Shown here one piece after another: positions 2,243-63,304 of a stretch of 64,000 bases of DNA. Position 1 is the first letter of the stretch. The number at the start of each line of letters is the position of its first letter. The stretch is from Schistosoma haematobium (lineage: Eukaryota > Platyhelminthes > Trematoda > Strigeidida > Schistosomatidae), in the NCBI RefSeq assembly GCF_000699445.3, contig NC_067198.1, positions 30,817,536 through 30,881,535 on the forward strand, read 5' to 3'. The notes under the pieces are model-generated. The model saw nothing but the letters and a program-made list of their open reading frames with translations, searched no databases and was not told the origin of the DNA. Position numbers and translations under genes: made by a program.

Positions 2243-2584
2243 TTAACCATTTGATACTGGGAGGTAGACGTTAATGCGTATGCGTATGCATTCCGTACCA
2301 AGCAGCCGGGTCAGCGAGGAGAATAAATAATAGGGGAAAATTTCTCGAATAAAGCGTGGAATTCATCGTCACGCGAATAAAAAGTAACAAGGATTCGGTA
2401 CACATACATGTGAGTCTATTATATTAATACTATTCTTATCGTTATCCGTCATGTCGAGTATATTATATATTAAATATGAAAATATACGACAGACGTGGAT
2501 AGATAAATCATAGACTCACCGAATTGGCTTCTTTGGAAGATTTGACCAGAAGCAGAGGCGTGTTCCAAAATACGGGTCACCAAT

Positions 2585-3547: not shown

Positions 3548-4318
3548 CTAGTCGAGGAAGCGTACGGGTAAACGTACTCGGCGACCGGAACGTGAGACGG
3601 CAGTCTCGTTCGCATCGCGTGAGCCTGCAATCTCATCCGAAGTCAAGGGCGGCGTGGTCTGCTGATCTGGACGTGAGACTGTCGTCTCGTCCGTAGACGG
3701 TGCAGATGACGCGTGCTGTTGACTGGGACGTGACAGTGAGGTCTCAGGTGTATCTAGCGTGGGACCTGAAGATGGTTTGAGGATCCCGCTAGTAGGTTTG
3801 CTTGGTCTAGCATTGAATCTCAGGTTATCAGATAGGGCACTGTCATCGACGTGTGCTGGTTTGAGACGATCAATGCTGACGATCTCGACGCGGCCGTGTC
3901 GATCAACCTTGAAGGTCTTTTCGTGACGAGCGATCACGCGAAAAGGGCCTTCGTAAGGTTGTTGCAAAGGTTTGCGTACCGAATCTACTCGTATGAAAAC
4001 ATGTGAACAGGTGGATAACTCTCGAGGGAGAGCGACCTGTCGATGTTGTATTCGAGTTGACACCGGAGGCAGCGTTCGCATAAATGCAGACAGTCGATGG
4101 ACGTAGTCTGATTTAGCGAAATTAGGTCTGCTCCGTGATGTGAAGAATTCTCCGGGCAGACGCAATATCGTGCCGTATACCATTTCAGCGGAGGAACATT
4201 GTATATCTGCCTTCAAGCTCGTTCGAATACCTAAGAGGACGAGCGATAAGGTTTCGTACCAGTCGTCGTTCTCGTGTGCTCGTAGAGCACTTTTAAGTTG
4301 GCAATGAAACCGTTCAAC
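3548..4318 (-). pseudogene. Integrase C-terminal fragment, array unit 2
   Basis: Same fragment as at 1472-2242, with the same nonsense codon at its upstream edge and the same missing catalytic core. The copies differ by isolated substitutions only. Conservation of the open frame across three units reflects recent copying and is not evidence of selection. Its product, if any, would lack integration activity. Confidence 0.85.
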
Positions 4319-4346
4319 TTAACCATTTGATACTGGGAGGTAGACG

Positions 4347-4529
4347 TTAATGCGTATGCGTATGCATTCCGTACCAAGCAGCCGGGTCAGCGAGGAGAAT
4401 AAATAATAGGGGAAAATTTCTCGAATAAAGCGTGGAATTCATCGTCACGCGAATAAAAAAGTAACAAGGATTCGGTACACATACATGTGAGTCTATTATA
4501 TTAATACTATTCTTATCGTTATCCGTCAT
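4347..4529 (-). pseudogene. Gag-like start remnant, array unit 2
   Basis: A 60-codon frame starts MTDNDKNS downstream of the primer binding site, where gag normally begins, and stops near a repeated GCATAC run that marks the deletion junction with the integrase fragment. The frame exists only in units with six As (here and 6426-6608). The two leftward units have five As and are shifted. I recognise no gag domain in what remains. Confidence 0.5.
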
Positions 4530-4661
4530 GTCGAGTATATTATATATTAAATATGAAAATATACGACAGACGTGGATAGATAAATCATAGACTCACCGAA
4601 TTGGCTTCTTTGGAAGATTTGACCAGAAGCAGAGGCGTGTTCCAAAATACGGGTCACCAAT

Positions 4662-5068
4662 TGTAGCGTGGCGTCGAGTTGGGATTAACTATGAACACCG
4701 CTACCAAGAAACACGTGCCAAATAAATCAGAAGGCGAGGGTTGAACGTAACCAAAGAAAACCATAAAATTTACGAGAAGTCAATTATCAGAAGGCAATTA
4801 ATGGACCAAGTCGAGTTATATTTGCTGGCGATCTCGTGGCATCGAAAGGATACCGAGATCGTGCCAGGATACAACCTTGGTTACAGAAGGTAACCGAATT
4901 CGCGCGAAGTTACAATCGAAGTGTCAGTATAAGAATGGAAGCACAAAATAGCTGTCATTAGCACAGTCAAACAAAAGCACATTAAAACAAACACTGGTAC
5001 AGTTGGTTATAATAATAATTGTTTTTATTAAACCAGTCGTGTTCTCGTGATAAATGTGAGTCACTACA
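4662..5068 (-). repeat. LTR copy 3 (407 bp)
   Basis: Same length and ends as the other three LTRs and shared between two neighbouring units. No target-site duplication separates the units, which argues against independent insertions. Confidence 0.9.
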
Positions 5069-5626
5069 GGAGCCCCCGCTAGAAAGGGTTTACACTTTCG
5101 ATAAATAGCGGTTTGAATCGTGGGACTGATCGGCTTACGAGCGATTGTAGGACGGAAGAATTGGCGAACAGGAAAGCGATCGTTGGTCGTCGAGTTGCCA
5201 ACGAAGGTCGTTTTCGGAGAACGGTACCAGGAGCGATGTGTTGTATTTATTGCTTGAGTTGGCATGCTACACCAGAGTGGTTTGTATCCAGAATCTGAAG
5301 AGGGCGTTCGTAGGAGTGCGCACCAGAAACGCTGCAGACGTAGGACGAAACCACGTTGAGCCGATGAACCAGAAGCGACCATAACGACCGAGTTCGAGAC
5401 CAAGCGTATGCCAAGCATTCGAAACCAATATATCGACTGAGTGCGTTGACAAGAGCGTGGGTGGCCAATCCAGCTTTCGCCAAAGTTGACTGAAGTCGAC
5501 GGAACCAAACGGAGATGGTCGAGGGCGTGGGCTCAGGAAACAAAAAGAAAATCAAAAAAAGAGAAGAGTGTAGCATGCAAGTAGCATAGGAATATTCCTA
5601 CACCGTATCGGTTGTCGACTGTGCGA

Positions 5627-6397
5627 CTAGTCGAGGAAGCGTACGGGTAAACGTACTCGGCGACCGGAACGTGAGACGGCAGTCTCGTTCGCATCGCGTG
5701 AGCCTGCAATCTCATCCGAAGTCAAGGGCGGCGTGGTCTGCTGATCTGGACGTGAGACTGTCGTCTCGTCCGTAGACGGTGCAGATGACGCGTGCTGTTG
5801 ACTGGGACGTGACAGTGAGGTCTCAGGTGTATCTAGCGTGGGACCTGAAGATGGTTTGAGGATCCCGCTAGTAGGTTTGCTTGGTCTAGCATTGAATCTC
5901 AGGTTATCAGATAGGGCACTGTCATCGACGTGTGCTGGTTTGAGACGATCAATGCTGACGATCTCGACGCGGCCGTGTCGATCAACCTTGAAGGTCTTTT
6001 CGTGACGAGCGATCACGCGAAAAGGGCCTTCGTAAGGTTGTTGCAAAGGTTTGCGTACCGAATCTACTCGTATGAAAACATGTGAACAGGTGGATAACTC
6101 TCGAGGGAGAGCGACCTGTCGATGTTGTATTCGAGTTGACACCGGAGGCAGCGTTCGCATAAATGCAGACAGTCGATGGACGTAGTCTGATTTAGCGAAA
6201 TTAGGTCTGCTCCGTGATGTGAAGAATTCTCCGGGCAGACGCAATATCGTGCCGTATACCATTTCAGCGGAGGAACATTGTATATCTGCCTTCAAGCTCG
6301 TTCGAATACCTAAGAGGACGAGCGATAAGGTTTCGTACCAGTCGTCGTTCTCGTGTGCTCGTAGAGCACTTTTAAGTTGGCAATGAAACCGTTCAAC
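5627..6397 (-). pseudogene. Integrase C-terminal fragment, array unit 3
   Basis: Third copy of the integrase tail, 256 open codons after the TAA at 6398-6400. It ends 559 bp before the next LTR. That gap holds several overlapping open frames on the minus strand that look like frame shadows of a non-coding 3' region. A genuine small third frame cannot be excluded. Confidence 0.85.
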
Positions 6398-10885: not shown

Positions 10886-13800
10886 GTTTGTTCCTGGGCT
10901 GTTTTATATATATTCTCATAATTTTTTACTCCTAATTGGATTGTAGATTTTCATGTACCGAGCATCGTATAGTGTATTTGAATTTATATTATTTTTAGTG
11001 CAAAATACTTTGGTCGTTTTAGGTGTTAGTTTATATGCTGGCAATCATATATGTTCAGCGGTAATGACAAGTTTGTCTGCGAGACCACTGCGAATTTATA
11101 CTGTCAAACTCCTATTGTAATCTAATGTAACGAAACCGTCAATACAAATCGCCCGACAAATTAGTCATATTTGTCTCTTAGTAAGTGAAATAGGCCATCT
11201 TGATGGACTTTAGTCATACTGGTCTGAATCTCGCTTATTACCATCAAGTAAACTGACCAAGTGACGACACTATAATTTATGGACAAACCAATAACATCTA
11301 TTATGGTGTCTTGGATTTTGCTGGAAATTGGTCCATCCATATGGCTAAGCAGCATTTTAGCAATCTAGTTGATATTATTTGGCGATGAAAACCCTTGCTC
11401 TAATTTCTAATCTGAACTTCTAACTGTAAATTCGGATTCTGATTCCTCACACTAATTTTTGACGCTTTTCGATTTTATTAAGGAGTTAAATTTTTTAAAG
11501 TTCATATTAGCGCCACTTAAAGGTACTCCATAAATCATAGTCTCACCGACAAAGTTTGTATATTGTGGTTCTAAGAGTAGTGCAGTTTATACTTATATTT
11601 GTATAGCCCTGAGCTTTCATAGCTTATATCAGCACACCGGACATGAGTTTACGAATAAAGGAGTGATTATGTGACAATAATGTAATGTAGAAGGAGGGAG
11701 TAAAACATGACAATATTGCTATATAAGTCGTTTGCTCAAAGTGCGCATGTGTAGCTGAAATGTATATAGGGCATGTCACACAAAGTCTACAACCACTAAA
11801 TAAATTATCTCATACATATCGATCTAGTAGTATGAGCCACTAAATAACTAAAATCAGTAGTCAGTGACTCCACGGGTAACCGCCCTACTTATCTTCGGAG
11901 TTTAGTCAGTTCCGATAGACTGATGTCGGATGGAATCTCTGAACTGATTTAGAAGCCTCGATTGTCTTTTATTAACTTGCATCACTTGTGACAGGCGATA
12001 TATCTGTCTGCCAGCCAGAGGACGAGTTTACTGCGCAGCAGTTCGCTCCGTCCCATGAAACATGACCATTTAGAATAGAGCATATTTGTAGGTTACTAGT
12101 AATTCATCATTGGTATATTCGGAGCTTCGTTCTTTTATTTCGGAACCATCGAGTAAGAAGTGTTGTTGTTTGACACAGTACTAAGTAAATATGGGGAATA
12201 ATTTGTTGGGGTACTGAAATTTTACCAGCTGTGGCTGACATGTGTTTCATATAACCTACCGCGTACCACGACAGGTGATGTTTGGTATTGGACTGAGCCA
12301 TGCTGATAGGTGTAGATTACCTAATTGATGTCCGGGCGTTTATGGTAACCAATGGCTAGAGGTTCTGAATGACACGGCTTAAAATCTTTTACAATGGTGG
12401 CGGTGCATTCACTTTATTTTCCTCTAAAACCTGAGTCCCGAAATCTTTTTACACCTTTTTTCTTCTTTGTGTAAATAATCTCTACTAGTGCTGCTACTAC
12501 TAATGTTGTTGCTGCTGCACAGACTTGTTTCAATAATCTTATCTCTGTGCTAATGTGATGCTGCAACCTGGACCGATGTATATATGTATCAGGTTCTACG
12601 TTGCGCATGACTAACTAACTGACCTGGTACAAGCCCTCGTCTTAATTTGTTCATTTCAGTTTTTCTGTCCCACTACTTTGCTAGTATAGAGTACGTTGTT
12701 GTAGTTGATGGTCAAATATTCAAAACTTGTTTATCAACTACGTTGACTGACAAAGGTTCGTATCCTAATCAGCTTATTTATTACATTTATCTATGGATAT
12801 GTGTACATATTTCTTTCTTAAACCAAATTACTCTACTCCTACGGCAGGACTCATTTTACAACTTACATTTAGATGAAGTCAGTGTATTAAATCTTAGTCG
12901 TATGCGTATTTATGCTTTGATATCTCAGTACTAGTTCTAGACATAAAATTTTTTTTCTGGTTTGAATATTGTAAGATGACTTGTATTCTGAAATACAGTC
13001 TCAAACAATGTTGATATTTAAAACATTTTATTGTCGATACCAAGTACATTACCAAGTGAATTTCTAAAAAAATATATGGCTAATAGAATGATATAAAAAT
13101 CTAGAAAACGTTTAACAAAAGAGATGACAATTGTCAATCAAACGGACTCATATTTTAGATATTTTTGAACCTTTGACATTTACAAACGAATTATCAGATT
13201 TCAATCAAAGATGAGTCTTCGTCAAAAATTTATTTACACTAATTACTGACACCTCTGTGTTTGAATGAATAAGTAAATAGTACAGCTTATGTTGTACTCG
13301 TGCGAGATAGTTATGAAGAAAACAAATCAATGAATATTCAATAGAATTGAATGTTGCGATATATAAATGTTTCCTATTTGCAGTGTGGTTATGAAAATAA
13401 GTAAAATCAATCCTACTCGACCGTAGCTGCTACCTTGACGCGGTGGTCGGGCTTACCTATCGTGATGACCCAACCGAGCTATATTGGCTGGAACATATGT
13501 TCATGTAGGTACTACCATGCCAAGCAGGTCGATTGGAGAACGGTAAGATTAAAAGCAGCAACTCAAGGTTTGAGGGTGAAGTCGTACTGCTGACTGTAGA
13601 GGGGTGTGGCAGCAGTAAGGTGTCTCCCTCGGACAAACAGCATCTACAGCAATGCTGTCTTCTCACAAGGAAGGAAGGGGTTAGAAAAGCTCGACCCTAA
13701 AAACGTCATACCTCACCTTACCTCACGGATTTCCGTCTCCGGTGGTAAGGCCCTTCGAAGAACGGAGCTAACACATTAAAAACCTCCCACAAAAAAGTCG

Positions 13801-28433: not shown

Positions 28434-29545
28434 GTCAGTCAGTCAGAAACAACGTAGAACTTCGTACGTACGTACATCAGTTCGAGTTGCCACACCACAT
28501 TAGCACAGAGATGCAGTTGTCGATTCAAACCCCGTAGTGGTAGAGGTAATAAGAGTATAAGCAGTAATCCGAAAGATTAGGGTTTGAAGATGTTATTTAA
28601 GGAGTATAATATAGTGAAATAAATTTGGAAAGAGGAAAAAAGGGACATGAAGAATTCAGAAGATTAGAATTTGGGAGAACACAAAGAGTGGATGCATCTG
28701 CGCCATTGCAAACGATTTTGAGCCATATCATTCAAAGTCTCTAACCATCGGTTGCTGTCATCTGGCGGTCCCCAACCAGGTAGTCTACACCTACCAACAT
28801 GACTCAGTCCACTTGTCAGTGACTTCATGGACTTGTGCCATGTTTTGGTCTGGCCGACCCTAGCTTTCTTCCAATCTACTCCTATACCATAAAACATAGC
28901 ACGTCGAGGCAGTCGGTCGTTGGGCATACGTAACACGTGTCACAGCCATCTCATCAATTGGTTTGCCATCCTTACGTAGTACCCGTTTCCTAACAACTGC
29001 ATTACTTACTCGATGGTCCCAGGATATACGAGCAATGTTTCGAAGACACCTATGATCAAATACTAGTAACCTACGAATATCCTCTACTCCTACCGGCCAT
29101 GGTTCACTGCCGTAAAGTAGGACGGAACGAACTGCTGCACAGTAAACACATCCTTTGGTTGATAGACGGATATCTCGCCTACGCCATAAATGACGCAAGT
29201 TGGCAAAAGCTAATCGAGTCTTCTGTATCCGTACTGGGATTTCGTCACACATCAGACCACAAGGGCTGATGAGACTTCCAAGATAAGTGAAGCGGTCGAC
29301 ACACTCAACTACTTCACTCCCTATCACTAGTTCGGGTGTCGATGTAACCCAATCCTGAAGTAACATTTTGCATTTCGAGGGAGAGAATCGCATCCCGAAC
29401 ATGCTTGCATTGTTGGTTAGAGTGGTCAGAAGACTGCATTTTGTCAGCGTGTTCACCAAATAAAACTATGTCATCAGCATATTCTAAGTCAACAAGTGAA
29501 CCTCCCGGTACAAGTTCAACCCCTGGAATACTAAAAAGCGCAGAG
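28434..29545 (-). pseudogene. 5'-truncated LINE, family B (RTE-like reverse transcriptase C-terminus)
   Basis: On the minus strand it begins within the reverse transcriptase at DLEYADDIVLFGEHAD (catalytic YADD at about 29470-29481). A frameshift follows, then FSPSKCKMLLQDW, FTYLGSLISPCG, the SVLLYGSEPWP and VFDHRCLRNIARISW blocks, another frameshift near 28900, and a C-terminus of the LGWGPPDD type. The 3' region reaches TGACTGACTGAC at 28434-28446. The endonuclease and N-terminal half are absent. The layout endonuclease-RT without RNase H is typical of RTE-like LINEs. Related 3' ends lie at 12370, 17095 and 41812. Confidence 0.8.
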
Positions 29546-35016: not shown

Positions 35017-35627
35017 TAAAGATCATTGAGCGGTGAATTTATTGTTAAAGCACTTGACCTTCAACTAGTATGACATAAAATCTAACTCCATTGAATCTAG
35101 TTCAGTTTGAATGGACATACATTGTCTATAAAACTCACACTTTAAGTGTGCCTTAAAGCTTAATGCACAAATCTGTGCCTAGTAAATGAGTTACATTTAA
35201 TGTAATTTTTATAAATAGTTTAAAAATCATAACAAAATCAATATATTCCAATATTATGAAAAATTAAAAGGGGAGTTAAAAATATTCTTTCCATGAGCAC
35301 TAATAATTTGAACAATAATTTAATAGTTGCCGATTAGTAAATTACTTTCATGTGATAACATACCATGATGTTAATGAATGTTGAAATTCCTAGCTTTCTA
35401 ACTTAAATCTGAAAAATAATGCTATTTTTGCAATATTTATTAAATTTAGTCATTCATCATAATAATAATGTAAGTAGAGATTAAACTATCAAACTGAAAT
35501 GACAATATTATTATTATTATTTTCTATTCAAATCGCACCATGTAGAATGTGTTTTTTTGACTCAATTTTTGTTAAAATTCTACGTAACAATTACATTTTT
35601 ATAATCACAGAGCGGTTTTGTTGATAT

Positions 35628-35780
35628 TATGGTCCTGGGCCCTGGGTTCGAACCTCGCGAGCGGGGTCGTGGATGCGCACTGTTGAGGAGTCACACAATA
35701 GGACGAAACAGCTGTCCAGTGCTTTCAGGTTTTCCATGGTGGTCTAGCTTCACTTGACTCGTGATCTAAACTGTTGAAAT
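35628..35780 (+). mobile_element. Hammerhead repeat family H2, truncated copy
   Basis: It begins in the tRNA-like part just before a Pol III B-box (GGTTCGAACCT, 35645-35655), runs through a hammerhead at 35677-35722 and ends in the shared TTTTCCATGGTGGTCTAGC and TGACTCGTGAT tail. The A-box half and the upstream 200 bp of the unit are missing. Confidence 0.75.
35677..35722 (+). ncRNA. Type I hammerhead ribozyme motif, family H2 (probably weakened)
   Basis: Stem I is GCACTG pairing with CAGTGC. The core reads TTGAGGA where CUGANGA is expected (first C to U). Stem II is GTC/GAC with one mismatch, followed by GAAA. Stem III is the self-complementary ACAGCTGT, and the expected cleavage site is GTC at 35714-35716. 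Other copies have ACGGCCGT at stem III, so both partners of one base pair changed together here. Confidence 0.7.
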
Positions 35781-36045
35781 ATGATTCTTAATCATCGTTA
35801 CTTTTTTCTATTATAATATAAAATATTTAACATAGATAATAATCATATTGTTTTCATTAAGGAACAAACATAGTTTACTAATTACAATTGATTGATCACT
35901 GGGTAGTGATCAATGTCATGCTTGTCTAGTCCTTATTAGTGCAGATCGAATGCTATCGATCATGTTGCAATGTGGCCACCAGTCTAGGTGACTCGACACT
36001 GTGGGCACTATGTATTGAGATTTAGATGGTGGTTGGAGGTAGTCA

Positions 36046-36105
36046 ACAGGAAACCCTGGACCCGGGTTTCGTGCTACTTGGCACTCGTCAGCAAGATGTA
36101 CTTGT
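36046..36105 (-). ncRNA. Type I hammerhead ribozyme, H1 left arm
   Basis: On the minus strand the core CTGACGA, stem II GTGC/GCAC with loop CAAGTA, GAAA, the self-complementary stem III ACCCGGGT and the cleavage triplet GTC are all intact. Stem I is ATCTTG/CAGGGT with wobble pairs. Beyond an internal loop the outer helix ACAAG/CCTGT has one mismatch. Confidence 0.85.
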
Positions 36106-36433
36106 AATCTTGAGGGAACTGGTGCTCCCTGGCTGATTTGATCTCGTGTCACCCAGCTTCATAGTCAGAGACGTTACCACTGAGCTATCCGAGCCGTGAC
36201 TAACCTCCTGTAGGACTGGGATGTAATCACAATTGATTGATCACCACCATCTAAATCTCAATACATAGTGCCCACAGTGTCGAGTCACCTAGACTGGTGG
36301 CCACATTGCAACATGATCGATAGCATTCGATCTGCACTAATAAGGACTAGACATGCATGACATTGATCACCACCCAGTGATCAATCAATTGTGATTACAT
36401 CTCAGTCCTACAGGAGGTTAGTCACGGCTCGGA

Positions 36434-36444
36434 TAGCTCAGTGG
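36434..36444 (+). promoter_or_regulatory. Pol III A-box in the tRNA-like head of family H1
   Basis: TAGCTCAGTGG fits the A-box consensus exactly. A decayed B-box-like GATCAAATC follows at about 36479-36487. The mirror copy lies in the left arm on the minus strand. It would allow internal Pol III transcription of the unit. Confidence 0.6.
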
Positions 36445-36515
36445 TAACGTCTCTGACTGTGAAGCTGGGTGACACGAGATCAAATCAGCCAGGGAGCACC
36501 AGTTCCCTCAAGATT

Positions 36516-36575
36516 ACAGGTACATCTTGCTGACGAGTGCCAAGTAGCACGAAACCCGGGTCCAGGGTTTCCTGT
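36516..36575 (+). ncRNA. Type I hammerhead ribozyme, H1 right arm (intact)
   Basis: Core CTGACGA at 36530-36536; stem II GTGC (36537-36540) with GCAC (36547-36550); GAAA at 36551-36554; stem III ACCCGGGT at 36554-36561; predicted cleavage after C36562. Stem I pairs 36524-36529 with 36563-36568 (two G-U pairs). After a small internal loop, ACAGG (36516-36520) pairs with CCTGT (36571-36575). The short stem III is typical of metazoan hammerheads that cleave better as dimers. This is the best-preserved ribozyme in the window. Confidence 0.88.
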
Positions 36576-36828
36576 TGACTACCTCCAACCACCATCTAAA
36601 TAGTTTACTAATTAGACTGTATAGAAGAAAAAAACATTAGTCGGATCAACTAAATATTGTATATAAAGATTATAATGATGACTTAGATGGAATGATCAGG
36701 TGATATATCTTTACAATTCAACCTGGAATTATTCTGAAGTTAGAAGTTCATTTGTATTATTGTGAATTTAAGTTAAGATTACTAAAATTTTCATTTCATG
36801 TTATTAAATTGTGTTAAATTATAGTGTT

Positions 36829-37958: not shown

Positions 37959-38207
37959 TTGGTTCAGCAAAGAGTTCTTTTTTCGGAGCATCAATTTTCA
38001 AAGCTGTACAATCGCAAACTTTTCACAGATCACTCAATCAAAGCGGACCCTGCGCTCACAGTCATCTACAAGATAAATAGAATGCCGCCAAAGGTAGTTA
38101 TATTGCATCTTCTTGACATTGCTGAAGCAATACCCATACATCTGAGGAAACGAGAATTATGCGTCCAAAAGAAATTGGTAAAATCTTTCCTTCTACCATG
38201 TTCTTAA
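37959..38207 (+). pseudogene. Probable Penelope-like retroelement C-terminal remnant
   Basis: An 82-codon frame contains IKADPALTVIYKINR, then IAEAIPIHLRKRELCVQKKL and a short hydrophobic end LLPCS. The ending AEA-AI-----LCVQK---LLPW is, as I recall it, a recurring tail of fluke retroelements of the Penelope-like type. That is recognition by memory and cannot be confirmed here. Upstream sequence (37600-37950) is too decayed to extend the frame. A pyrimidine-rich stretch follows to 38440. A relative of these elements would be a candidate enzyme source for the hammerhead repeats. Confidence 0.4.
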
Positions 38208-38927: not shown

Positions 38928-39023
38928 CAAAGATGGATGGCATGCAGACACATCTATCTAACGAGTCTCAAATAGGACGAAACGCGTTCCCTGGATTCCA
39001 CTACCAGCCACTATCCATCTTTG
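38928..39023 (+). ncRNA. Smalpha-type hammerhead, degenerate, with outer helix
   Basis: CTAACGA, GTCTC/GGAC with loop AAATA, GAAA, then CGCGTTCCCTGGATTCCAC closely follow the classical schistosome Smalpha hammerhead. One core base is changed (CUGA to CUAA), which should abolish cleavage. CAAAGATGGAT at 38928-38938 is perfectly complementary to ATCCATCTTTG at 39013-39023, an outer helix enclosing the whole motif. Confidence 0.65.
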
Positions 39024-39684: not shown

Positions 39685-39845
39685 TGTCTGGACTCAATAT
39701 TTAAGTGGATAGCGTGATCATGTTTTCAGTAAACTGTACTAAATTTGAGTCCCAGAATGAACATTAAGTCCATCTGACAAGTCCCAAATAGGCCGAAATG
39801 CGCATATCAGATTCCACTGTTAACCACATTCCACCTATTTTATAT
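39685..39845 (+). mobile_element. Smalpha-like repeat with degenerate hammerhead
   Basis: A tRNA-like head (AGTGGATAGCGTGATCATG, then TTTGAGTCCCAGAATGAAC) leads into CTGACAA, GTCCC-AAATA-GGCC, GAAA and a self-complementary ATGCGCAT, then CAGATTCCACTG. The core G-to-A change (CUGANGA to CUGACAA) and a broken stem II should inactivate it. Order and spacing match the Smalpha family of schistosomes. Confidence 0.65.
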
Positions 39846-44838: not shown

Positions 44839-45222
44839 CTATGTCGCACCATCTGTCGGACCCCAGCCAGGGAGTCGTGAAGGTCTAACACAAGCCAGTC
44901 TTTTGCAGCTTTCTTTCATACCACGACACCATGTCATACACTGATCACCTCTCCGCTTTTTCCAACCAGTCCCAGAGTCGGCAAATAATGCACGACGTGG
45001 AATTCTCTGGGACGACATTCGTAGAACATGTCCAAGCCACCGAAGTCGGTGTTTCAAGATGGTGACACCGATTGGATTATCGTCTCTGCGCCCGAATACA
45101 CGATGCCGAACCTCTGCATTACTGACATGGTGTTGCCACTGGATGTCAGCAATCCTACGAAGACATCGATGATCGAACACAGAGTCGTCTAACATCCTCA
45201 ACTCGGAGAGGCCAGGTTTCAC
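44839..45222 (-). pseudogene. LINE-A reverse transcriptase C-terminus
   Basis: A frame of 127 codons with VFDHRCLRRIADIQWQHHVS, LRWLGHVLRM and a CVRPSRLPGWGPTD end, in a different frame from 45155-46084. These are the thumb/C-terminal blocks seen also in family B at 28664-29459, so families A and B are related. Confidence 0.75.
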
Positions 45223-46084
45223 AAGCGTAGAGTAGAACTGCTCTCACTGACGCGTTGTAGATCCGACCTTTTACAGCCAGACTAACAGCACGAAGGCGCC
45301 AAAGGTGGCCCAGATTGGCATAAGCCGTTCTGGCTTTCACTATACGTGCATTGATCTCATCACTCACGCCACCACCAGCACTTATGCAGCTACCCAGATA
45401 CACGAACTTCTCGACTACTTCTATCTGCTCACCATCCAGGGTGAGTACAGGATTAGGATCCTGCCAGTCTTGTAGAAGTACTTTGCACTTCGAAGGTGCA
45501 AAGCACATGCCATGCCTACGGACATTGATCGCCAACTGATTAAGCGCGAATTGCATGTCTTGGGCATTATCGCACAGTAAGACAATATCATCCGCATACT
45601 CAAGGTCGAGAAGTCTTTCTCCAGGCAACAGATCCACACCACCATTACATACATTCATCAGAGCTGTTTCCAGAATGTCATCGATGGCAAAGTTGAAGAG
45701 GAATGGTGAGATTGGGCAACCCTGCTTAACCCCACTGCTCGAATGGAACAATGGAGAGAGGTGGTTGTATCCCCTCACTCTGCCTGAAGTGTTTGTATAT
45801 AGGGCTTTTAGGATGTTAATAAACTTCTCAGGCACACCCTTCTTCAATAGACAATCCCAGAGAACAGTCCTATCCAACGAATCGAAGACAGCCCTGATGT
45901 CAAGAAACACTACGATTGTTGGCCTTTGATAAGTATGGCGGTGTTCTAACATTTGGCGGAGGGTGAAGATAAGATCAATACATTCTCGACCAGAACGAAA
46001 CCCAGCCTGCTCCTCGCGAGTCAATCTTTCTCGAGTTTTGAAACAACCTACGAAGTATGACGGAAGCCAATAGCTTGGACGCAA
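45155..46084 (-). pseudogene. LINE-A reverse transcriptase core
   Basis: A 309-residue frame with EEQAGFRSGRECID, the FLDIRAVFDSLDR block (the first catalytic Asp lies in FLD), GVKQGCPISPFLFNFAIDD, LEYADDIVLL with the catalytic YADD, and FAPSKCKVLLQDW and KFVYLGSCISAGGG. FLDIRAVFDS departs from the usual FLD-KAAFDS, an Ile-Arg for Lys change of uncertain effect. The frame is lost near 45200. Confidence 0.85.
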
Positions 46085-46166
46085 CCGGAAGTAGACTTAT
46101 CCCCCGATAGTTGTTACAGGAACGACGTGAACCCTTTTTAAAGATAGGGACAACTATCGACTCATT

Positions 46167-46499
46167 CTATGACGTTGATACACTCTCTAGCTCCCACACC
46201 TTTGTAAACAACGTCGTCAGTTCCTTAGTCAGAAAGTCACCACCATCGTTAAAAAGGGCAGGAGATAAGTCATCTGGGCCAGGTGATTTGTAACACTTCA
46301 AGAGTTGAAGTTCCTTGCGGACTTCCGCCTCATTTGGTGGATAAGTCGTCACCGGCCATGGAGGGCAGGACAGTCTGACCGATGTTGCCGGAGCAGCAGG
46401 CCAGCTGAACTGCCCTTCGAAAAATTCTGCCCATCGTCCAAGACGTCGATTGATGTTAGTGATTTGCATCCCATCATCCTCGCAGATTGTTTCGCTCAC
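46167..46499 (-). pseudogene. LINE-A segment between endonuclease and reverse transcriptase
   Basis: A 110-codon frame with a WAEFFEGQFSWP linker, then LQLLKCYKSPGPDDLSPALF, the start of the reverse-transcriptase domain (SPGPDD motif). It is shifted relative to both neighbours. Confidence 0.7.
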
Positions 46500-46629
46500 A
46501 CCAGACTTCTTGCTGCCAGTGGTTCGGATGAGTTAGAAGAGCTTCCGGTAATTACCAGATGCAGCTGCTGCTTCCAGCTCATTAGCACGCTTGGGCTACC
46601 AGGCTTCTCGGTCCTTACGCAAGCTTTTC

Positions 46630-47742
46630 TCAATTTTCTTTACGTAACATCCTTCTTTTGGGGTCAAACTCACAGTCACTCAGAGTAGACCGACGAGCTT
46701 CGATGAGTTGTAAGGAGCCTGAAGAAACCCAGTGCTTATAAGCGAGACGTTTCGCGAAGCCGCAAGCTGTTTTACTCACCATTTTCGTGGCGTCATGAAG
46801 TTGCAACCAATTCTCATCTATACTTTTCTGTGGAATGGTAGCTAGCCTAGAAGCTAGCTCGGTTGGATACTTACTTGCAACAGAAGTTGCAACCAGCTTG
46901 CTAATATCAATCCGTTGATGGCGGTCACTTCGTTGGCCACTGAAAAGTAAGGTCAGATTTGCGCAGACCAAGGCGTGGTCACAGTCCAGATAGGTACTCC
47001 AAAAGGAGCGGCAGTCTTGTACACAACCACGCCAGCGGTAGCTGATCGCGATGTGATCAATCTGAGTCCAGGCTTGAAATGCAGAGGGAGGACGCAAGGT
47101 GGCACATCGGCGATGACTGTGCCGAAAGTTAGTGCTAGCCAGAAACAGGTTGTGGTCTGTGTACAGTTGCAGTAGACGGTCCCCGTTATCTGACCTGCGA
47201 CCAACAAGTCCCCATGGGCCAATATCTATCGAACGCACTTTCTGGAGAAGAACAGATAACTGGTGGTGAAACTCATCCTTGATTGCATCCGGGCTGCAAT
47301 CTGTCGGAGCATAGGCGGAGATGACGAAAATACATCGTTTCTCACGCCGATTTCTTCCCACTTTGATGGAACTCTCTAATCTAACAGCACATAACCGACT
47401 GTTAATGGGGATCCAATCGATTAGTGCTGCCTCAGCTCTAGCGCTTAGTGCAACACCAACGCCAGCAAGACCAGACGAAGATGCCATAGGGTCCCCGGAT
47501 AAGCGCACGTAAAACAAGCTTTTCGAAGCGACAGATGGAGATCGAATTTGTAGTACTTCACCAGAGTCATGAATACGGGTCTCGGATAGACAACAAACGT
47601 CGATAGTAAGACTTTCCAAAGACATAGCCAGCCCTATTTGTTGTCCGACCTGCATAAATGTGTGAACGTTGAAGGCAGCCAGTTTGAACGGTGCACGTGG
47701 TTTCAGAATAACTGCTCCAGTATTCGTATTCGGTGGTGACAT
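46630..47742 (-). pseudogene. LINE-A endonuclease domain (inactivated)
   Basis: A 370-residue frame opening MSPPNTNTGAV. Apurinic-endonuclease blocks are in order: AAFNVHTF (about 20-27), CCLSETRI with catalytic Glu (about 50-57), ISAYAPTD, TQIDHIAI and CDHALV. The block GDFNA, which supplies a catalytic Asp/Asn in this family and usually sits just before the GPWGLVGRRSDNG motif, is missing at about 47210-47235, consistent with a small in-frame deletion. The usual SDH reads CDH (46978-46986). Both changes should abolish nicking. Confidence 0.8.
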
Positions 47743-48663
47743 ACAATTTTCAACCGAACAATGACTCGAGAACGTTTAGATAGAACCGTGTTTCCACCAT
47801 ATACAAGCTGCTGTATAAGTCGAAAAATAAGGATACAGAGTGGAAATAAAAGAGAGTGAATAAATGACGTAAATAGTAATAATAATAGTAATAATAATGT
47901 GAATCGTTTGATTGTTAATCGAGGCAGAACAAGTATTTCCCATAATTATCAACAGTTCACCGTATTTGTGTGAGGGCTGTGATACTGTCCGGGTGCCCAG
48001 ACCAAAGCAGGCGGTTATCTTCGGGGGCCACACCCCGAGCCTTTGACCTGAAGGTCTGACCCACAAGGTAGTACAGCATCGTGAGGAGATGTAGTCTCAT
48101 GGTAGCCGGTGACCAACGATTGGTTCATACGCCATTTGTCCCGTCAGGGTACTGGAGCCTATGTGCACCATTGATTTGGAATCCGGTTAAAGCGCCGGAC
48201 ATTCGCTTTTCGTCCTCTCATTTTCGTAAACAACAGTAATGCTACGAGAAGACAGTGAGTAGGACTTCCCTGGCAGAGGCTGTATACACGTGGCCGTGTG
48301 AGAGCATTTCGAGAGGGAAGGTGGGCTTAACCCACTCTCGACCATACCAGGGCATTTGGGGGCTAGATAGGTATAGTTCCAGTTTCTTACTATAAGATCC
48401 AATTAATCAAGTTGTAACAACTAAAATGCCAGCTAATTTACTAGTATGAGTTTTTGATTGGTGACAGTAAAATATTCAACAGATGACGTATCTCTTACTA
48501 TCCATTTATCTTATAAACTCGAATCTAGCATGGTATGCTAATCCATGGCAGAGTATAGGCTGGAGTAGTTGAAATAGATCCACTACAATGAAAATTATAT
48601 TGCAGTTCACATTATTTCTAAGATTTAACCGTTAATTTTGTAAAGGTGGTTTCGTATTCCTAA

Positions 48664-49700: not shown

Positions 49701-52197
49701 TTTAATAAATTGTAATAATCTCACAGACTATTTTGTAAATTATTCTAGAATTTATTGTATTTGCCATTTTCATTAAATATTTATGTTAATAATTACTATG
49801 AGTAAATCAAATTGTTCTTGATTTATTTAAATGAACAAAAGATAAATATATTTCTTATAAATTTACTTTTGAATAGTGTCACTCATTTGAATTTTAACCT
49901 AATTTAACCTTAAATAGTTTTAATTGAATTTATGATTAAAATTATAAAATACTTTTAATATGCTGGTAGATAATAATCATATCAATGTAATTTAATTAAA
50001 TTATTATTTAAGATCACAACATATTACTATTAGCATTTGGTTAATAATGTAACTTTGAAAAATTAACAATCAACCATACATATTATACACTCAGCTTTTA
50101 ATCATATTTAATGCCACATCAACCTAGTCTTAATCAATAGAATGATATTCAAATATATAACTTTATATCTGAGAATCTAGTGATTGAATAATTTCTCATT
50201 AACGGGATCAGACTTTATGTTAACTATACATAAATAATAAGTTGATCTAATTCATCAATAAAGTATATGATACTTTTACAATCAAGACAATATTCACAGT
50301 ATACATATATGCCAATAAGAGATTGATCAATTGCAGTCTTAATCATCAATAGGGAAGATTCAGGTGAACAATACCAAGGGAATTCAAACGATTGAATAGT
50401 TAACTATGAAATGAACAATAATTTAATCATAGTTTACAAGAACTATTCTGAGTAATTAATTTTCACATGGATTTGGAAATAAAACCTATGAACATAGAAG
50501 AGAATCAAGCATAAAAGAAACATTTACCTTTTTTTGTTAATGAAAGTTTGAATAACTATATAAACATAAGTAAACTGGCTGAATTTTCTCATGTAAATGA
50601 GTTATTCCAGGAGTTTTCTATAATGAACGCTAAACAAGTTCATTCATTACATAAACATATGCCTAAAAACAACGTTTTTTTTTATTTTTTTACTGCAGAG
50701 ACAATTCATGAAACATTTCAAATAATTGCATCCTATTAGTCTGGTAAGGTTGATTTCTTCCCTTCCTGAAGATTGGTTTTATAATTATGCTTCACAACTT
50801 TCATTTGGTAAATAAACTTCACATTTCATAGACCCAAAAAACACTTTGTTGATTAAGTATTATATTTAAATCTTTCACCTTCCTTTCTTAAAATAAAGAT
50901 GTTTAATCCATAGACTTTTATAAAATTACTTTCTTAAATAATATTTCAAACAATCAAGTCATTGAGTTATTAGTTATAGTTGATTAGATGTTTCCTTAGA
51001 TTTCTTTTCATTACAAGAATTCTGACCTAATGAAAAATTCACAATGTTTTTGAGAAACAGTGATTATATTTCAATTCATTAAACAAATAGTTTTCTATCA
51101 GTATTATATATGATAAATTTAAATGTAAACAATTCTACATTTCGTTTAATATAGTTAAGTGCTTCAAACAGGATGTCATGAACCCTTATTTTATGCATGT
51201 CGATGGTCATCAGAAAGAAGAGTATAATGATTCATGGACAGTTAAAAAATTATCCATTGTATCTTACAGCGGAAATAAGATTGAGCTACTCTTACCTTAC
51301 TCTTACATGACTGTGATATTTATACTAAGTGGCCACTAAGTAGTAATCAACTTCACTCAATCTTTTCTTCATTAATAATATCAGTTAAGTAATGTAAAAT
51401 ATATATTTATGGCTACCATCAGATGGTTTACAACCACTCAACGTAAAAAGATAATGTAACATGATGTCGTACTACTTACAATAGTTGTCATATTATTACT
51501 TTATCAACAAATTAAGACTAGCAATTATGTAATGTTATATAAGATCACATCATTTTTATTTGCTTTTCTTTTAAATAAATAAGTTAGAAAAGTGAATGAA
51601 AATATTTTATCCAATGCAGTTGTATACGCCTTCCATTACGCTGGTTGTACGAACATTAAACAAACAAGACAGATTGTTTAGCCATGTGTACGGCTTCAGT
51701 ATACCTAATTTCAGTAGCGAAACTAGAGTCCTTCCATAGATGAGCTAGTACTTTGTCTTCACAGTAAGATATTAATAAATTCAGATACAAAATCCATGAA
51801 GTAATTAGTATTTCTAAGTTTTTTATTCACTGGAGCCGATTCTAACAATTCTATCCATGAGAAAACCAAAGGATAATAGAGAGAATTTTCATATGGCCGA
51901 TCTTTTCTAACCAGTCGATCATGGTTGCTCAGACGTATCAGAATCCATATTGCTTCGGTTTAACAGTCATAATCTCCCTGACGAAAGATTCAGATAAACT
52001 TCACTGATATAATTGTCCAATAACCCCTCGTTTTTGAACGTTATTTAATTAGTCTAAGCTCGAAATGAAAGTTATTTTTTGATCAAATAGATATCGACAA
52101 AACTACCCAACGAAACAAAGGATTAATTATTCTACTGCTCAGAAGAAAAAGACAAAAATTATTTATTTCAGTAAACAATAATAAATATCATATTTGG
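49700..52197. other. AT-rich intergenic DNA
   Basis: No supported gene or shared repeat. Short open frames lack motifs. Confidence 0.5.
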
Positions 52198-54425
52198 ATC
52201 CGCCTGGAGCCCCTCCGGGGCTACTGATTGTCCCAAGCCCGGATAAAGGAGGAGGGTTAAGCATGGGGATAGCGACCCCATCCCGTGGAAAACTAACTCG
52301 CTAGAAAAAAACGCTAACCAGAAAAAGTTATTCAAACCTTTTAAACTCTGCCCTGGGAGTCAGAAGGTTTTCATTTAGAAGAGTTATGACATCTCATGGT
52401 GAAAGTCGAGTTCCTTCGGAAGTCACGAGGCCGATGCCCCTTCTGAAAACCAGAGCAACCATTTATTTAGGTACATGGGGTGCTCGTACAATGTGGGAGA
52501 CCAGTAGAGTCTTCCAAATTGCTGCAGAAATGAGGAGATATAACCGGGAGGTGCCTGGGGTCAGTGAAACACATTGAACGCAAGTTGGACAACAACGACT
52601 AGCTTCAGGAGAGCTTCTGTTGTACTCTGGCCGCGAGAAAGGAGACGCCTCATCCAAACAAGGAGTTGCATTGATGTTGTCCAAACAAGCAAAAATGCAT
52701 ATATAAGATGGGAATCTCATGGACTAAAGATCATCAAAGCTTCCTTCAAAACAAAGAAAGAGGGCATTTCAATGAACGTCATCTAATGCTATGCGACTAC
52801 CAACGACTACAATGAAGACGCTAAAGATCAGTTCTACGATAGGCTGCAGTCAATCATTGAGAAGTGCCCATCAAAGGACCTGACCATTCTGATGGGAGAT
52901 TTAAATGCCAAGGTTGGAATGGACAACACCGGATATGAAGACATCATGGGAGGACATGGACTGGAAAAAAGGAAGGAAAATGGTGAGAGATTTGCAAACC
53001 TGTTTGCCTTCAATAAACTGGTCATAGGAGACACTATATTCTCACACAACCGCATATACAAAATAACATAGACTTCACCGGATAACACTTACTTAGTTAC
53101 CTTCGCCTGTTACTCCCAATGGAGCATAGGCCACCGACCAGCATTCTATAACCCACCTTGTCCTGGGCCTTTCTTTCTAGTTCCATCAAATTTTTTTCAT
53201 TTTTCTCATGTCGGTCTCAATTCTCGACGTAATGTGTTCTTTGTCTTCCTCTCCTCTTTTGGCCTTGAGGATTCCATATGAGGGCTTGCCTTGTGACGCA
53301 GTTAGGTGTTTTCCTCAATGTGTGTCCTATCTGATGTTGACCCACCAACAATTGAAGAGATCAGCATGGCCATCAGACAAATCAAGAATGGCAAAGCAAC
53401 AGGACCAGACAACATTCCAACAGAGGCACTGAAAGCAGATATAGCAGTAACTGCAAGAATACTCCACATTCCCTTCAATAAGATTTGGGATGAAGAACAA
53501 GTAGCAACAGACTGGAAAGAAGGACCTCGGATCAAAATACCAAAGAAAGGCGATCTCAGCAACTGTGATTACTACAGGGGCATCATTCTTCTCTCAATAC
53601 CGGAGAAAGTCTTCAACAGGGTATTGTTAAACAGAATGAAGGACTGCGTAGACGCCCAACTTCGTGACTAATAGGCAGGATTCCGTAAGGATAGATCCTG
53701 TACAAACCAAATCGCAACACTACGGATCATTGTGGGACAATCAATTGAATGGAATTCATCACTCTACATCAACTTCATTGACTACGAAAAGGCATTTGAT
53801 AATGTGGACAAAACAACACTATGTAAGCTTCTTCGAAACTACGGCGTGACTCAGAAGATAGCCAATATCATACAGAACTCATATGATGGATTACACTGCA
53901 AAATTGTGCATGGAGGACAGTTGACAAAGTCGTTCGAAGTGAAGACCGGTGTTAGGCAAGGTTGCTTACTCTCACCCTTTCACTTTCTCCTGGTGATCGA
54001 CTGGATCATGAAGACGTCAACGTCTGAAGGGAAGCGCGGGATACAATAGACATCTAAGATGCAGTTGGATGATCTAGACTTCGCAGACGATCTGGCCCTT
54101 CTATCCCAAACGCAACAACAAATGCAGGAGAAGACGAACAGTGTGGCAGCAGCCTCAGGAGCAATAGGTCTCAATGTACACAAAGGGAAAAGCAAGATTC
54201 TCCGATACAACACAGCATACACCAATCCAATCACATTTGACAGAGAAGATTTGGACAATGTAAAAACCTTTACATATCTGGGCAGCATCATTGATGTACA
54301 GGGTGGATCCGATGCAGGTGTGAAGGCGCGGATCGGTAAAGCAAGAGCAGCATATTTACAGCTGAAGAACATCTGGAACTCAAAACAACTGTCAACCAAC
54401 ATCAAGGTCAGGGGGCACTCCAAAT
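52198..54425 (+). pseudogene. LINE, family C, rearranged (5' UTR, endonuclease, inverted 3' piece, reverse transcriptase)
   Basis: It opens with a GC-rich leader (CGCCTGGAGCCCCTCCGGGG). The endonuclease begins LGTWGARTMWETSRVFQIAA at about 52468 and continues in broken frames through VSETH, GVALMLSKQAK and MGDLNAKVGMDN (about 52890). At 53086-53308 an inverted copy of the family's own 3' end interrupts it. The reverse transcriptase resumes at [20 protein letters not shown]: 53306-53671, then KAFDNVD, TGVRQGCLLSPF (53732-54049), FADDLALLS and FTYLGSIIDVQGG (54059-54436). The element stops at 54425 without its 3' end. The linker between endonuclease and RT is missing. Confidence 0.85.
53086..53308 (-). 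mobile_element. Inverted LINE-C 3' end inside the LINE-C copy
   Basis: The minus strand encodes the C-terminal [13 protein letters not shown] and a GGLCSIGSNRR end followed by a TAACTAAGTAAGTG tail, matching 43910-44150. The tail faces the endonuclease half and the inner end faces the RT half. No target-site duplication is evident at the joins. Confidence 0.85.
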
Positions 54426-58012: not shown

Positions 58013-58775
58013 CGGTCTATATCTTCTACTCTCAAAATCCACTTTTTGTCGCTATTAGAAAAATGATTAACTTCTGATGATTTCTCATAACTGAATATAC
58101 CCAAGTAAGTAAATTTATATTGACAGAAACTTAACTCATTTTTAATTTGGTCACTTAAAATTATGTATTAACTGTTCAATTACTTATTTCTGTCTGATTT
58201 TCCACTTATATGTTTATATACAAATATTGGTTTTATTCCAAATGCTTTGCATCTATTAAATTATCTTTATCAAATGAAAGGCACACTATATATTAATATA
58301 CTTTTACATATTGAAGAATCTTTCGAATGAAACACTTTAGCATACTAAATGTTATTTAGCATTTTGTTTGTTTGTTTCAAGGTTAAATTAATTTCAAGAA
58401 AACAAAATCGACAATCATTTAATTGTGTTTCCAACGTGATCTTATGATCTAACTTCTATAAATATATTCAAATAAAATGCGTTACGTAATAAGTAAATGT
58501 AATTTTTGACTTGATTAATAGATTAAATTTAGATAAATTGATGAATATCACTCATTATAAACATAGAAATTATTGATTAACAATTATTGTTAAGAGATTA
58601 TTTTCGAAATGATCGTATTGGTGAGAAATGTGTTTGCTATAAATTAACATATAGAATTCATAATTCGGTCATTTGTTTTTTTTCTTATCGTAGTAGTCTA
58701 TACCTTTTCAAAGAAAAAGAAACAGAAATTCAGACTATTATATAACGTAATATATTAGTTGGTAGATAATCATTT

Positions 58776-59200
58776 CACTGGTTGAAATCATGAGTCAATT
58801 GAAGCTAGACCGCTGTGGAAAACCTAGAAGCACTGGAAGGCCGTTTCGTACCAGTGTGGGACTCCTCAGCAGTGCGCATCCACGATCACGCTCCTCGCGA
58901 GGTTCAAACCCAGGACCTATCAGTTTCGCGCTCGAGCGCTTACCCATTAGACCACTGAGTTGGCATCTAACGGTGGTAATGTTTAACTTCAACCAATCCA
59001 CGAAGTTGCGCCACCGTACACCATTGTCTTCAGTGAGTTCCTATCTCACAACAGACCCGGCTGAAATCCACTGGTAACGACTTCTCACTAAAACTCCAGG
59101 AGTGTCCCCTGAAGTCAGTCACTAGTGAGCAGGTGATTATTATTATCAGAATGGGTTTTGTGGAGATTTTTTTACAAATTTCACTGGTTGAAATCATGAG
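58776..59200 (-). mobile_element. Hammerhead repeat family H2: complete unit with terminal redundancy
   Basis: The 10-bp duplication ATAATCATTT lies at 58766-58775 and 59201-59210. On the minus strand the insertion both begins and ends with CTCATGATTTCAACCAGTG, at a period of 406 bp, so it is one unit plus 19 bp of its own start. Inside are the tRNA-like head (A-box GTGGTCTAATGGGTAAG, about 58940-58956, and B-box GGTTTGAACCT) and the hammerhead. Confidence 0.88.
58830..58875 (-). ncRNA. Type I hammerhead ribozyme, H2 unit (core intact)
   Basis: The minus strand shows stem I GCACTG/CAGTGC perfect, core CTGAGGA intact, stem II GTCCC/GGTAC with one internal mismatch, and GAAA. Stem III is ACGGCCTT, where relatives have ACGGCCGT, so the cleavage triplet is TTC rather than GTC and stem III is one pair weaker. 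Activity is uncertain. Confidence 0.78.
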
Positions 59201-59210
59201 ATAATCATTT

Positions 59211-61490: not shown

Positions 61491-62715
61491 TAACCTGCAT
61501 TCTTAACATGTCTCTAATTTGAAAAGCTGGACAGTTTTTTTTTGCGTAAGTAACTTGTTGAAATACCTTGTGCTGAGAATTCTATATTGTACCAAAATAT
61601 AATATTCAATAAAGCCACTAATAATAATAATAATAATAATAATTTCTCCATATGGTTCCATTTCTTTGATCCATTACCGAATTCTTATTTTATGTACATT
61701 TTAGTCACCCCTTTATTTATACATTTCCACTTACTCAGTTCTCTTAAATTATGTAAACTCTTCAATTCTTGTTCAATTATTACGTAACCCACCTTGCCAG
61801 TCTTTTTAATTCCATGAATCTTATGTAAACCCTTCATCACATCTGAACTTCATTTACTTATTACACCACCCATTTCTAATGTTTTCTTGATTCTAACACC
61901 AAATAACCTCTGACCTTACACATATACATATTTAGTTATTACTGATAACATTTGTCATTCTCATTCTTTTCATTCCACACTATATCTTACCTCAATGTAA
62001 AATTTTATTACATATTTGGTTGCAAACAGCTGTTAAGAAACCACGATATACAAAGGAAATATTCAACAGCTTTTTAGTGAATTATTCAATGTTGGTATTA
62101 GATTGATTCGAAAATAATGAATCTTTCCTAAATTGATCATTAAATAATTAACAGATGTCTAACCTGTTCTTTTCCGATTTGGCTATTTTTTTTTGTAAAT
62201 GAAGTATAAATTACATATATAAACATAACTAAAACTGCCGATGTCATAATTCCATTTAGTTCCATAAATAAAAATTGACGTCGTTATTCAGAGATTAGAA
62301 TTTGATGTTTCTGATGTTGTATGTTAAAATGTATTTTTATTACAAAATTATGTAATAATCTATAAAACCATTGGTTTAACCAATATGATGATAAACGGAA
62401 ATAGTTAAACAATATTAGAAGTTATGAATTTGGAAATTTGAATATTTACGTCGTTTGTAATCATAGGGACTTTGAATTTTACAGAAGAAATAGAAAGTGA
62501 AAAAGGAAGCTATATGAAAGAAATGTAATAATACTGTCATTTAAAATAACAACCATGTATGTGATTTCCTCTGATTGATATTTAAAAGTATCATTTTAGC
62601 AAGCAACAAATCGGTTTACCATTTAAATAAGAAAAGTATTTCAGAATTACATTTAAGCAATCGGGATATTTCAGAATAATTAGTACCTAAATAAAGATAC
62701 AGTCAAATGATTTTA

Positions 62716-63304
62716 TAATTGAAATCATGGGTCACTTGAAGCTGGACCACCATGAAAAACCTGGAAGCACTGAATGGCCGTTTCGTTCTAATATGGGACT
62801 CCTCGGCAGCGCGCATCCACGATTCCATGGTGGTCTAGCTTCAATTGACCCATGATTTCAACTATTAAAATTTCTAAAATCTCCACAAAACCCCTTCTAA
62901 TAATAATCATCTGCTCACTAGTGACTGACTTCAAGAGATACTCCTTGAGTTCCAGTGAGAAGCCGTTACCAGTGGGGTTCAAGCAGGTCTGTTGTGAGAT
63001 AGGAACTCACTGAAGACAATGGTGTACGGTGGCGCAATTACGTGGACTGGTTGAACTTAGACGTTGACATCTTTGGATGCTGACTCATTGGTCTAACGGT
63101 TAAGTGCTCGCACGCGAGACTGATAGGGCTTGGGTTCGAATCTCTCGGGGAGCGGGATCGTGAATGAGCGCTGTTGGGGAGTCCCATACTGGCACAAAAC
63201 GGCCGTCCAGTGCTTCTAGGTTTTCCATGGTGGTCTAGCTTCAATTGACTCATGATTTCAACTATCGAAATTACTAAATCCTCCGCAAAACCCCTTCTGA
63301 GAAC
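62716..63304. mobile_element. Hammerhead repeat family H2: short inverted arm plus redundant unit
   Basis: 62716 to about 62822 is a minus-strand piece with a hammerhead at 62767-62812 (core CCGAGGA, changed). From about 62823 the plus strand carries a 400-bp unit and then about 76 bp of its own start again (TTCCATGGTGGTCTAGC at 62823 and 63223), ending at 63304. The plus-strand hammerhead, 63168-63213, is degenerate (core TTGGGGA, CAAA for GAAA). GATTTTA at 62709-62715 and 63305-63311 may be the target-site duplication. The design mirrors the inverted dimer at 35885. Confidence 0.78.

Follow-up and report, generated by a model that had tools for sequence, protein, structure and literature searches.

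Head-to-head, permuted hammerhead insertions in Schistosoma haematobium suggest target-primed reverse transcription from two fixed sites on retrozyme-like RNA

Among the systems described so far, animal non-LTR retrozymes are one of the closest to the elements considered here. Retrozyme copies in tandem are reported in PMC7229834, whose main text does not use the word "inverted", and the accessible part of a 2020 review (PMC7761336) predicts that circular RNA gives rise to cDNAs longer than the unit, while stating that no motif of animal retrozymes tells which retrotransposon mobilizes them, so that the partner escapes deduction. For schistosomes, the available portion of PMC8490949 documents Sma-like and other hammerhead satellites of S. 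mansoni; Sma corresponds to its W36.2.

Head-to-head arms are known from two further groups of retroelements. For Penelope-like elements (PLEs) of Adineta, the accessible text of PMC3846280 describes terminal repeats in head-to-head arrangement, in one case with a 15-bp overlap, together with 9–10-bp duplications and a "tail" that is not always present. One PLE, when purified, is reported to cut both target strands, to extend them and to begin copying inside its RNA, at a site non-homologous to the target; its start sites did not differ between strands, unprocessed RNA was its main substrate and ribozyme cleavage was not needed (PMC11167929). L1 twin or dual priming, as set out in the available sections of PMC2837659, has in common with the loci described below that both strands prime and that inverted arms, a duplication and microhomology result.

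Here, we analyzed a 64,000-nt stretch of the S. haematobium genome (NC_067198.1, positions 30,817,536–30,881,535; hereafter, the window) that contains a palindrome composed of two copies of a 345-bp hammerhead unit. Its features, with positions counted along the window or, where indicated, along the unit, are:

35870–35884, no strand: left copy of the target-site duplication, ATAGTTTACTAATTA; the last base may belong to the element
35884–36244, minus strand: A arm, one 345-nt unit plus 16 nt; runs from the central 5′ end (unit 135) to the 3′ end at 35884, where the A start site (unit 150) lies
36053–36097, minus strand: A-arm hammerhead, type I, 44.4 bits; cleavage predicted between 36059 and 36058
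36243–36244, no strand: inner junction of the two cDNAs, with 2-bp microhomology
36243–36601, plus strand: B arm, one 345-nt unit plus 14 nt; runs from the central 5′ end (unit 1) to the 3′ end at 36601, where the B start site (unit 14) lies
36434–36486, plus strand: putative tRNA-like motifs of the B arm that resemble the consensus, with box A at unit 192 (TAGCTCAGTGG) and box B at unit 236 (GATCAAATC)
36524–36568, plus strand: B-arm hammerhead, type I, 44.4 bits; cleavage predicted after 36562
36600–36614, no strand: right copy of the target-site duplication; AT at 36600–36601 is common to arm and duplication

The 5′ ends of the arms thus lie centrally and the 3′ ends point outward (head to head). 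That both arms arrived in one insertion, as the original prediction held, is supported by a single exact target-site duplication enclosing the permuted head-to-head pair. The duplication had been put at 14 bp; it is exact over 15 bp here, and as one base is possibly the element's, 14 bp is also a fair figure. In random boundary tries, a flush 14-mer duplication was matched in 2 of 200,000 cases. The expected 716 bp between the duplications was borne out, the arms overlapping by 2 bp at the center. The proposed unit length of 345 bp likewise stood, while the terminal redundancy, claimed to be 14–15 bp, measured 16 (left) and 14 (right) and is identical inside each arm (16/16 and 14/14). The arms begin at different points of the unit, as had been noted, with the left arm running from unit 135 round to 150 and the right from unit 1 round to 14. 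The hammerheads, described from the outset as intact, score 44.4 bits each against Rfam Hammerhead_1, and the two arms mismatch at five positions (unit 112, 129, 160, 217 and 277).

A genome search for the unit returned 77 matches in 19 scored regions among 2575 candidates, and all 19 regions were mapped to the unit. The query was the full A arm, which tilts the sample toward young, long, A-containing copies, and the share of two-arm loci given here is that of the 19 regions rather than of the whole family. Fifteen of them were two-arm head-to-head loci (the window locus, the ten loci L009–L018, and L020, L022, L023 and L024), and four were single-arm regions (L019, L021, L025 and L026), three without a duplication and L021 with one. 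The 3′ end at site A (unit 149–159) was present in 19 of the 19 regions examined. On the other arm, 14 of the 15 two-arm loci ended at site B (unit 11–22), the B end of L012 being taken from flank sequence; the exception, L017, lacks a duplication, and its other arm ends at unit 68. Pairs of A+A or B+B ends were absent among the examined loci (0 cases): the start sites differ by strand, one arm using A and the other B, and the head-to-head A+B pair is the commonest form among the 19 examined regions.

Flush duplications of 12–17 bp were found at 14 of the 15 two-arm loci, that is, at all but L017 (nine exact, five with one mismatch), whereas a control of random boundary pairs reached a score of 10 or more in 3 of 376 cases. 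Target sequences vary between loci while the A and B ends stay fixed. Arms inserted separately, each with duplications of its own, would speak against a single insertion; they were not seen, the outer duplication enclosing both arms at the same 14 of 15 loci. Priming from both target strands, proposed for the window locus, is supported there, and 18 other regions of the S. haematobium genome now add to it. Closer to the window, 264 kb of contiguous sequence that includes it holds ten blocks matching the unit, namely the window pair, a diverged head-to-head pair at 78109–78581 of the joined stretch with a second copy at 86395–86867, two blocks on their own and a pair in opposite orientation separated by 377 bp.

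Single-turn A arms (n = 16) were 352–464 nt long, corresponding to one full turn plus 7–119 nt, and none of them reaches B again. B arms measured 37–422 nt, L012 and the rearranged L014 aside. The query favors full-length arms; it does not set the upper limit of arm length. A rule by which both arms equal the unit plus about 15 nt fits the window (14 and 16 nt) and was dropped in view of the excess of 7–119 nt in 16 A arms and of these B-arm lengths. The cleavage site (unit 320) is crossed by the A arms of the window and of the mapped loci. At the window, the template of either arm must have run without a break through this site and exceeded one unit in length, which excludes a cleaved linear monomer. 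Of the circular or multimeric hammerhead RNA originally suggested, a template of this kind is supported; its circularity we infer, and a linear uncleaved concatemer would serve as well.

Less than two units per arm were found in 16 of the 19 examined regions; tandem copies of the unit occur in L012, L022 and L014. The largest, L012 (C1:57769263–57778005), is an 8.7-kb palindrome with 13 hammerheads per arm, in which 24 of 24 complete 344-bp units are identical, the outer ends are A and B, and an exact 16-bp duplication flanks the whole. In the A arm of L022, six complete units alternate between two types one base apart, as expected if a dimeric template had been copied about three times; an array of dimers read as one RNA would fit too. 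In L014, the A arm is 762 nt long and the B arm is rearranged. B is no absolute stop, since both L012 and L022 have arms that run past it repeatedly. That single-turn A arms stop before a second B would be natural on a circle bearing two priming complexes.

The inner joints carried 1–5 bp of microhomology at 12 of 12 loci measured, with a mean of 3.1 versus 0.68 by chance (0 of 20,000 simulations as high; overlaps from BLAST ends, with L012, L014 and L022 left out). A minor variant carried by at least two arms was seen at nineteen positions of the unit. Eight of these variants are private to both arms of one locus, two are common to exactly two arms of different loci, and nine to three or more arms. 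Differences between arms amounted to 33/3024 within loci (14 loci, L014 left out) versus 2616/117690 between loci, and when B arms were shuffled over 12 loci (L012, L014 and L022 left out), none of 5000 shuffles was as low in difference. Three of the 14 loci exceed the between-locus mean (L015, 7/180; L018, 3/55; L016, 1/37). Given the private variants shared by their arms and the low difference within loci, both cDNAs of one locus were, as a rule, copied from the same or identical RNA. This same-template origin, the fixed two-ended structure and templates longer than the unit can all be read from the sequence.

At 345 nt and a GC content of 48.7%, the unit lies inside the retrozyme criterion (about 170–400 nt, GC below 50%). 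With animal non-LTR retrozymes, it has in common a type I hammerhead with an intact core, unit size and GC content, and the existence of tandem copies. It differs in its inverted two-site architecture, which we did not find in the accessible text of PMC7229834 and PMC7761336, where tandem copies are described. Cleavage of the unit is predicted after position 320 (type I hammerhead; Rfam gathering score 34), and the hammerheads of L011 and L023 scored 42–46.4 bits in Rfam. ARAGORN called no tRNA for the unit with its box A and box B motifs. Folded as a circle, the unit was stabler than its shuffles (z = −3.98; 0 of 60 shuffles as good), no such stability being seen in the circular fold of two Sma-like units (z = 1.6 and −1.32); a linear fold of the ribozyme region was no better than shuffles (z = −0.61). 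The A+C richness of PLE start sites (PMC11167929) is matched at start site B, where 10 of 345 windows were equally high, but not at start site A (193 of 345). A scan of viral contigs for a 27-base piece of the ribozyme matched nothing.

The window also contains copies of a second hammerhead unit of about 400 bp, which is presumably Sma-like:

62711–63303, no strand: Sma-like head-to-head pair; left arm (minus) 112 nt to unit 47, right arm (plus) 400 + 76 nt to unit 76
58764–59210, minus strand: Sma-like single-arm copy (also delimited at 58772–59198), one 406-nt period plus a 23-nt redundancy, with an exact 12-bp flanking repeat AGATAATCATTT
35602–35780, no strand: Sma-like copy in which a possible inverted tail of about 30 nt (weak) adjoins a sense arm with its end at unit 49

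A third two-arm Sma-like copy, with ends at unit 73 and 38, lies upstream of the window. The duplications of diverged Sma-like copies are weak and are regarded as candidates; that of the pair at 62711–63303, AAYGATTTTA, has a score of 7, which 67 of 1500 random pairs equalled. For the inverted tail at 35602–35780, 23 of 2000 random 53-mers scored equally. Start sites are spaced by about 27 nt in the Sma-like family, as against about 140 nt from A to B in the 345-bp unit. Sma itself, a SINE-like element of schistosomes according to the available portion of PMC8490949, carries a type I hammerhead as the 345-bp unit does, and the Sma-like copies of the window are also head-to-head, but the two units share no sequence here: no homology was detected at the threshold used, the only other match being a 37-bp hammerhead at 38950–38986. 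Five of the ten inverted repeats of at least 40 nt within 3 kb in the window fall in hammerhead copies, one of these five pairs being possibly two separate insertions, and four others are one AT run.

Other repeats were recorded in passing. ORFs at 44839–47775 form, by eye, one broken LINE, with RVT_1 at 45155–46096 and best matches in schistosomes. A tandem array holding long ORFs (VERFHCQLK...) and repeating about every 2077 bp extends over 771–6397 of the window and C4:30787142–30817535 (L043–L046), with one ORF in 15 copies upstream and three in the window; the ORFs resemble the end of an LTR-retrotransposon polyprotein by eye, and Pfam returned none. Further upstream, C4:30617536–30650600 (L027–L030) holds a large inverted duplication around about 16.7–16.8 kb of the joined stretch (paired repeats 9100/24204 and 12439/21019, paired ORFs 1378/31452). 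Two places in the window match Rfam mir-3492, 29217–29294 and, with a score short of gathering, 11881–11958. They represent a single repeat in diverged form (71–73% identity), so that the "microRNA" sits in a dispersed repeat here. A twister-P1 match at 52194–52260 was sub-threshold (33.3 bits versus a gathering score of 67.2).

Taken together, the palindrome probably arose by target-primed reverse transcription (TPRT) from both cut strands, starting at two fixed sites of a circular or concatemeric hammerhead RNA and carried out by Penelope-like machinery. A non-autonomous, retrozyme-like hammerhead element would thereby yield a palindrome in one retrotransposition. Tandem genomic copies would be transcribed and the RNA cut by its hammerheads, after which unit-length, sometimes dimeric, RNA would be closed into a circle. 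An endonuclease/reverse transcriptase would make a staggered cut with 3′ overhangs of about 12–16 nt, as the duplications suggest, and both 3′ ends, to judge from the fixed ends of the arms, would prime on the same or identical RNA. One strand would start at A (unit about 153, about 178 nt past the cleavage site) and the other at B (unit about 11–22, about 36–47 nt past it). Each cDNA would circle the template, often for more than one full turn and in one locus for about 12 turns, before the cDNA 3′ ends are joined via 1–5 bp of microhomology and gap filling produces the target duplication.

Two alternatives keep much of this scheme. One replaces the Penelope-like enzyme by a LINE enzyme of the RTE or L1 type acting through twin or dual priming, as in human L1. 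Twin priming by L1 is recognized by head-to-head arms in one duplication, a model of dual priming with two RNAs exists (in the accessible text of PMC2837659), and the window does hold a reverse transcriptase ORF that is LINE-type by eye (RVT_1 at 45155–46096, best matches in Schistosoma). In that same text, however, L1 twin priming yields two fragments of one RNA with an internal deletion and is a variant, whereas the head-to-head pair is the commonest form examined here, with overlapping arms in the loci compared, two fixed ends and varied targets; two unrelated RNAs are disfavored by the variants that the arms share, and a TTTT/A motif was not apparent by eye at the target ends. We regard a LINE enzyme as unlikely. 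The other alternative retains the two-ended mechanism and lets it act on a linear, uncleaved concatemer transcribed from a tandem array. Arrays exist (L012 and L022) and their arms pass B repeatedly, the purified PLE uses unprocessed RNA (PMC11167929), and a long linear RNA would explain arms of more than one unit as well as identical units, a homogeneous concatemer also accounting for alternating ones. Against this, all 16 single-turn A arms stop at most 120 nt past a full turn and before B, for which a circle with two complexes offers a simple explanation and linear RNA does not; the alternating units are in keeping with a dimeric circle but could come from a dimeric array as well. A linear template is thus unlikely in our view, yet deserves to be taken seriously.

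The remaining explanations concern the origin of the inverted arm itself. Self-priming or fold-back of one cDNA, a model for PLE inverted repeats, explains the head-to-head repeats with palindromic joints in the accessible part of PMC3846280. At the window, however, the left arm continues for a further 136 nt beyond the point where the sequence of the other arm stops, before it meets the target, and so cannot be a copy of that cDNA; the inner ends fall at unit positions 135 and 1, which are unrelated, and meet over 2 bp. Fold-back was rejected at this locus, unless a longer cDNA was trimmed afterwards, and is very improbable as the source of the inverted copy. Since the family has tandem copies, two independent insertions or a later inversion within a tandem copy might be invoked; the window arms abut directly with no internal duplication, an outer duplication surrounds both arms at 14 of 15 two-arm loci, 14 loci show the same pair of ends and private variants are common to the arms, on which grounds this history was rejected and seems scarcely credible. 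Palindromes are also a known artefact of assembly or library fold-back, and for the symmetric 13 + 13-unit L012 with its identical units, the exact unit count is suspect. Permuted arms, differing end pairs, inter-arm substitutions and target duplications are nevertheless unexpected of a fold-back, and the window palindrome ends at a target duplication, has permuted arms and finds head-to-head counterparts in 14 of 18 other regions, which makes an artefact barely conceivable; it, too, was rejected.

Returning to TPRT from two fixed sites, the machinery is, by analogy, most likely Penelope-like: purified PLE cuts and extends both strands and starts internally, PLEs have head-to-head repeats with duplications, and reverse transcriptases read as PLE are present in S. 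haematobium. The likeness, as far as the accessible PLE literature goes, extends to head-to-head terminal repeats within one target duplication, hammerhead motifs, an internal start non-homologous to the target and both-strand cutting, and the optional PLE tail corresponds to the stretch between the two start sites (PMC3846280, accessible text). There are also differences. PLEs encode RT-EN, whereas the 345-bp unit is without such an ORF; PLE start sites are 30–40 nt apart, compared to about 140 nt between A and B; and the purified enzyme showed no strand difference in start sites (PMC11167929), while here A is used on one arm and B on the other. We prefer PLE machinery, an attribution that we infer with moderate confidence, as the strand result and the tentative label of the reverse transcriptases count somewhat against it.

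The S. haematobium reverse transcriptases are presumably Penelope-like, a label based in part on a sequence motif. They were read as PLE in L011 and in relatives with precomputed PF26215, one relative being named a predicted GIY-YIG endonuclease; Pfam gave RVT_1 only on these reverse transcriptases, and no GIY-YIG. No PLE with the A and B start sites was found in five PLE-bearing stretches, where the unit matched only the inserted copy itself and the 37-bp hammerhead at 38950–38986. Several associations between PLE and hammerhead sequences were noticed besides. In L011 (C1:75404722–75405268), a two-arm hammerhead insertion appears to interrupt a PLE, whose match reaches the insertion edge. In the window, a fragment at 38025–38198 is related to the C-terminus of a Penelope-like protein and is followed on the same strand by hammerheads at 38952–38996 (40.4 bits) and 39768–39812 (25.9 bits, below gathering), with AC-rich sequence past the cleavage site. 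Upstream of the window, L027 1–2400 is an old Penelope-like copy (a P0193 relative) with an inverted C-terminal/3′ piece, in which a Sma-like hammerhead/tRNA segment is fused between residue 445 and the 3′ untranslated region; this fusion may reflect template switching that involved PLE and retrozyme RNA.

In the open-access papers searched, and our claim is limited to these, we found no description of inverted two-site retrozyme insertions. The parts have precedents in L1 twin priming, Penelope repeats and animal retrozymes; it is the two-site mode on retrozyme RNA that was not found in these papers. More speculatively, and with the case for it still somewhat short of balanced, schistosome hammerhead retrozymes in general might move by an obligate two-site rolling-circle TPRT, in which a Penelope-type enzyme, probably a dimer, would cut both target strands and synthesize one cDNA per fixed site on a ribozyme-made circle, sometimes for a dozen rounds that would found satellite arrays in one step. 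L012 may be an example of a satellite array made from an RNA circle in a single step. The fixed A and B ends, one per arm, are a clue to the mobilizing enzyme, pointing to both-strand target-primed synthesis and to Penelope-like enzymes. They provide concrete start sites to test and could account for inverted Penelope repeats without antisense templates. If true, the mechanism would resolve the long-standing puzzle of head-to-head Penelope repeats and would tell which element mobilizes animal retrozymes.
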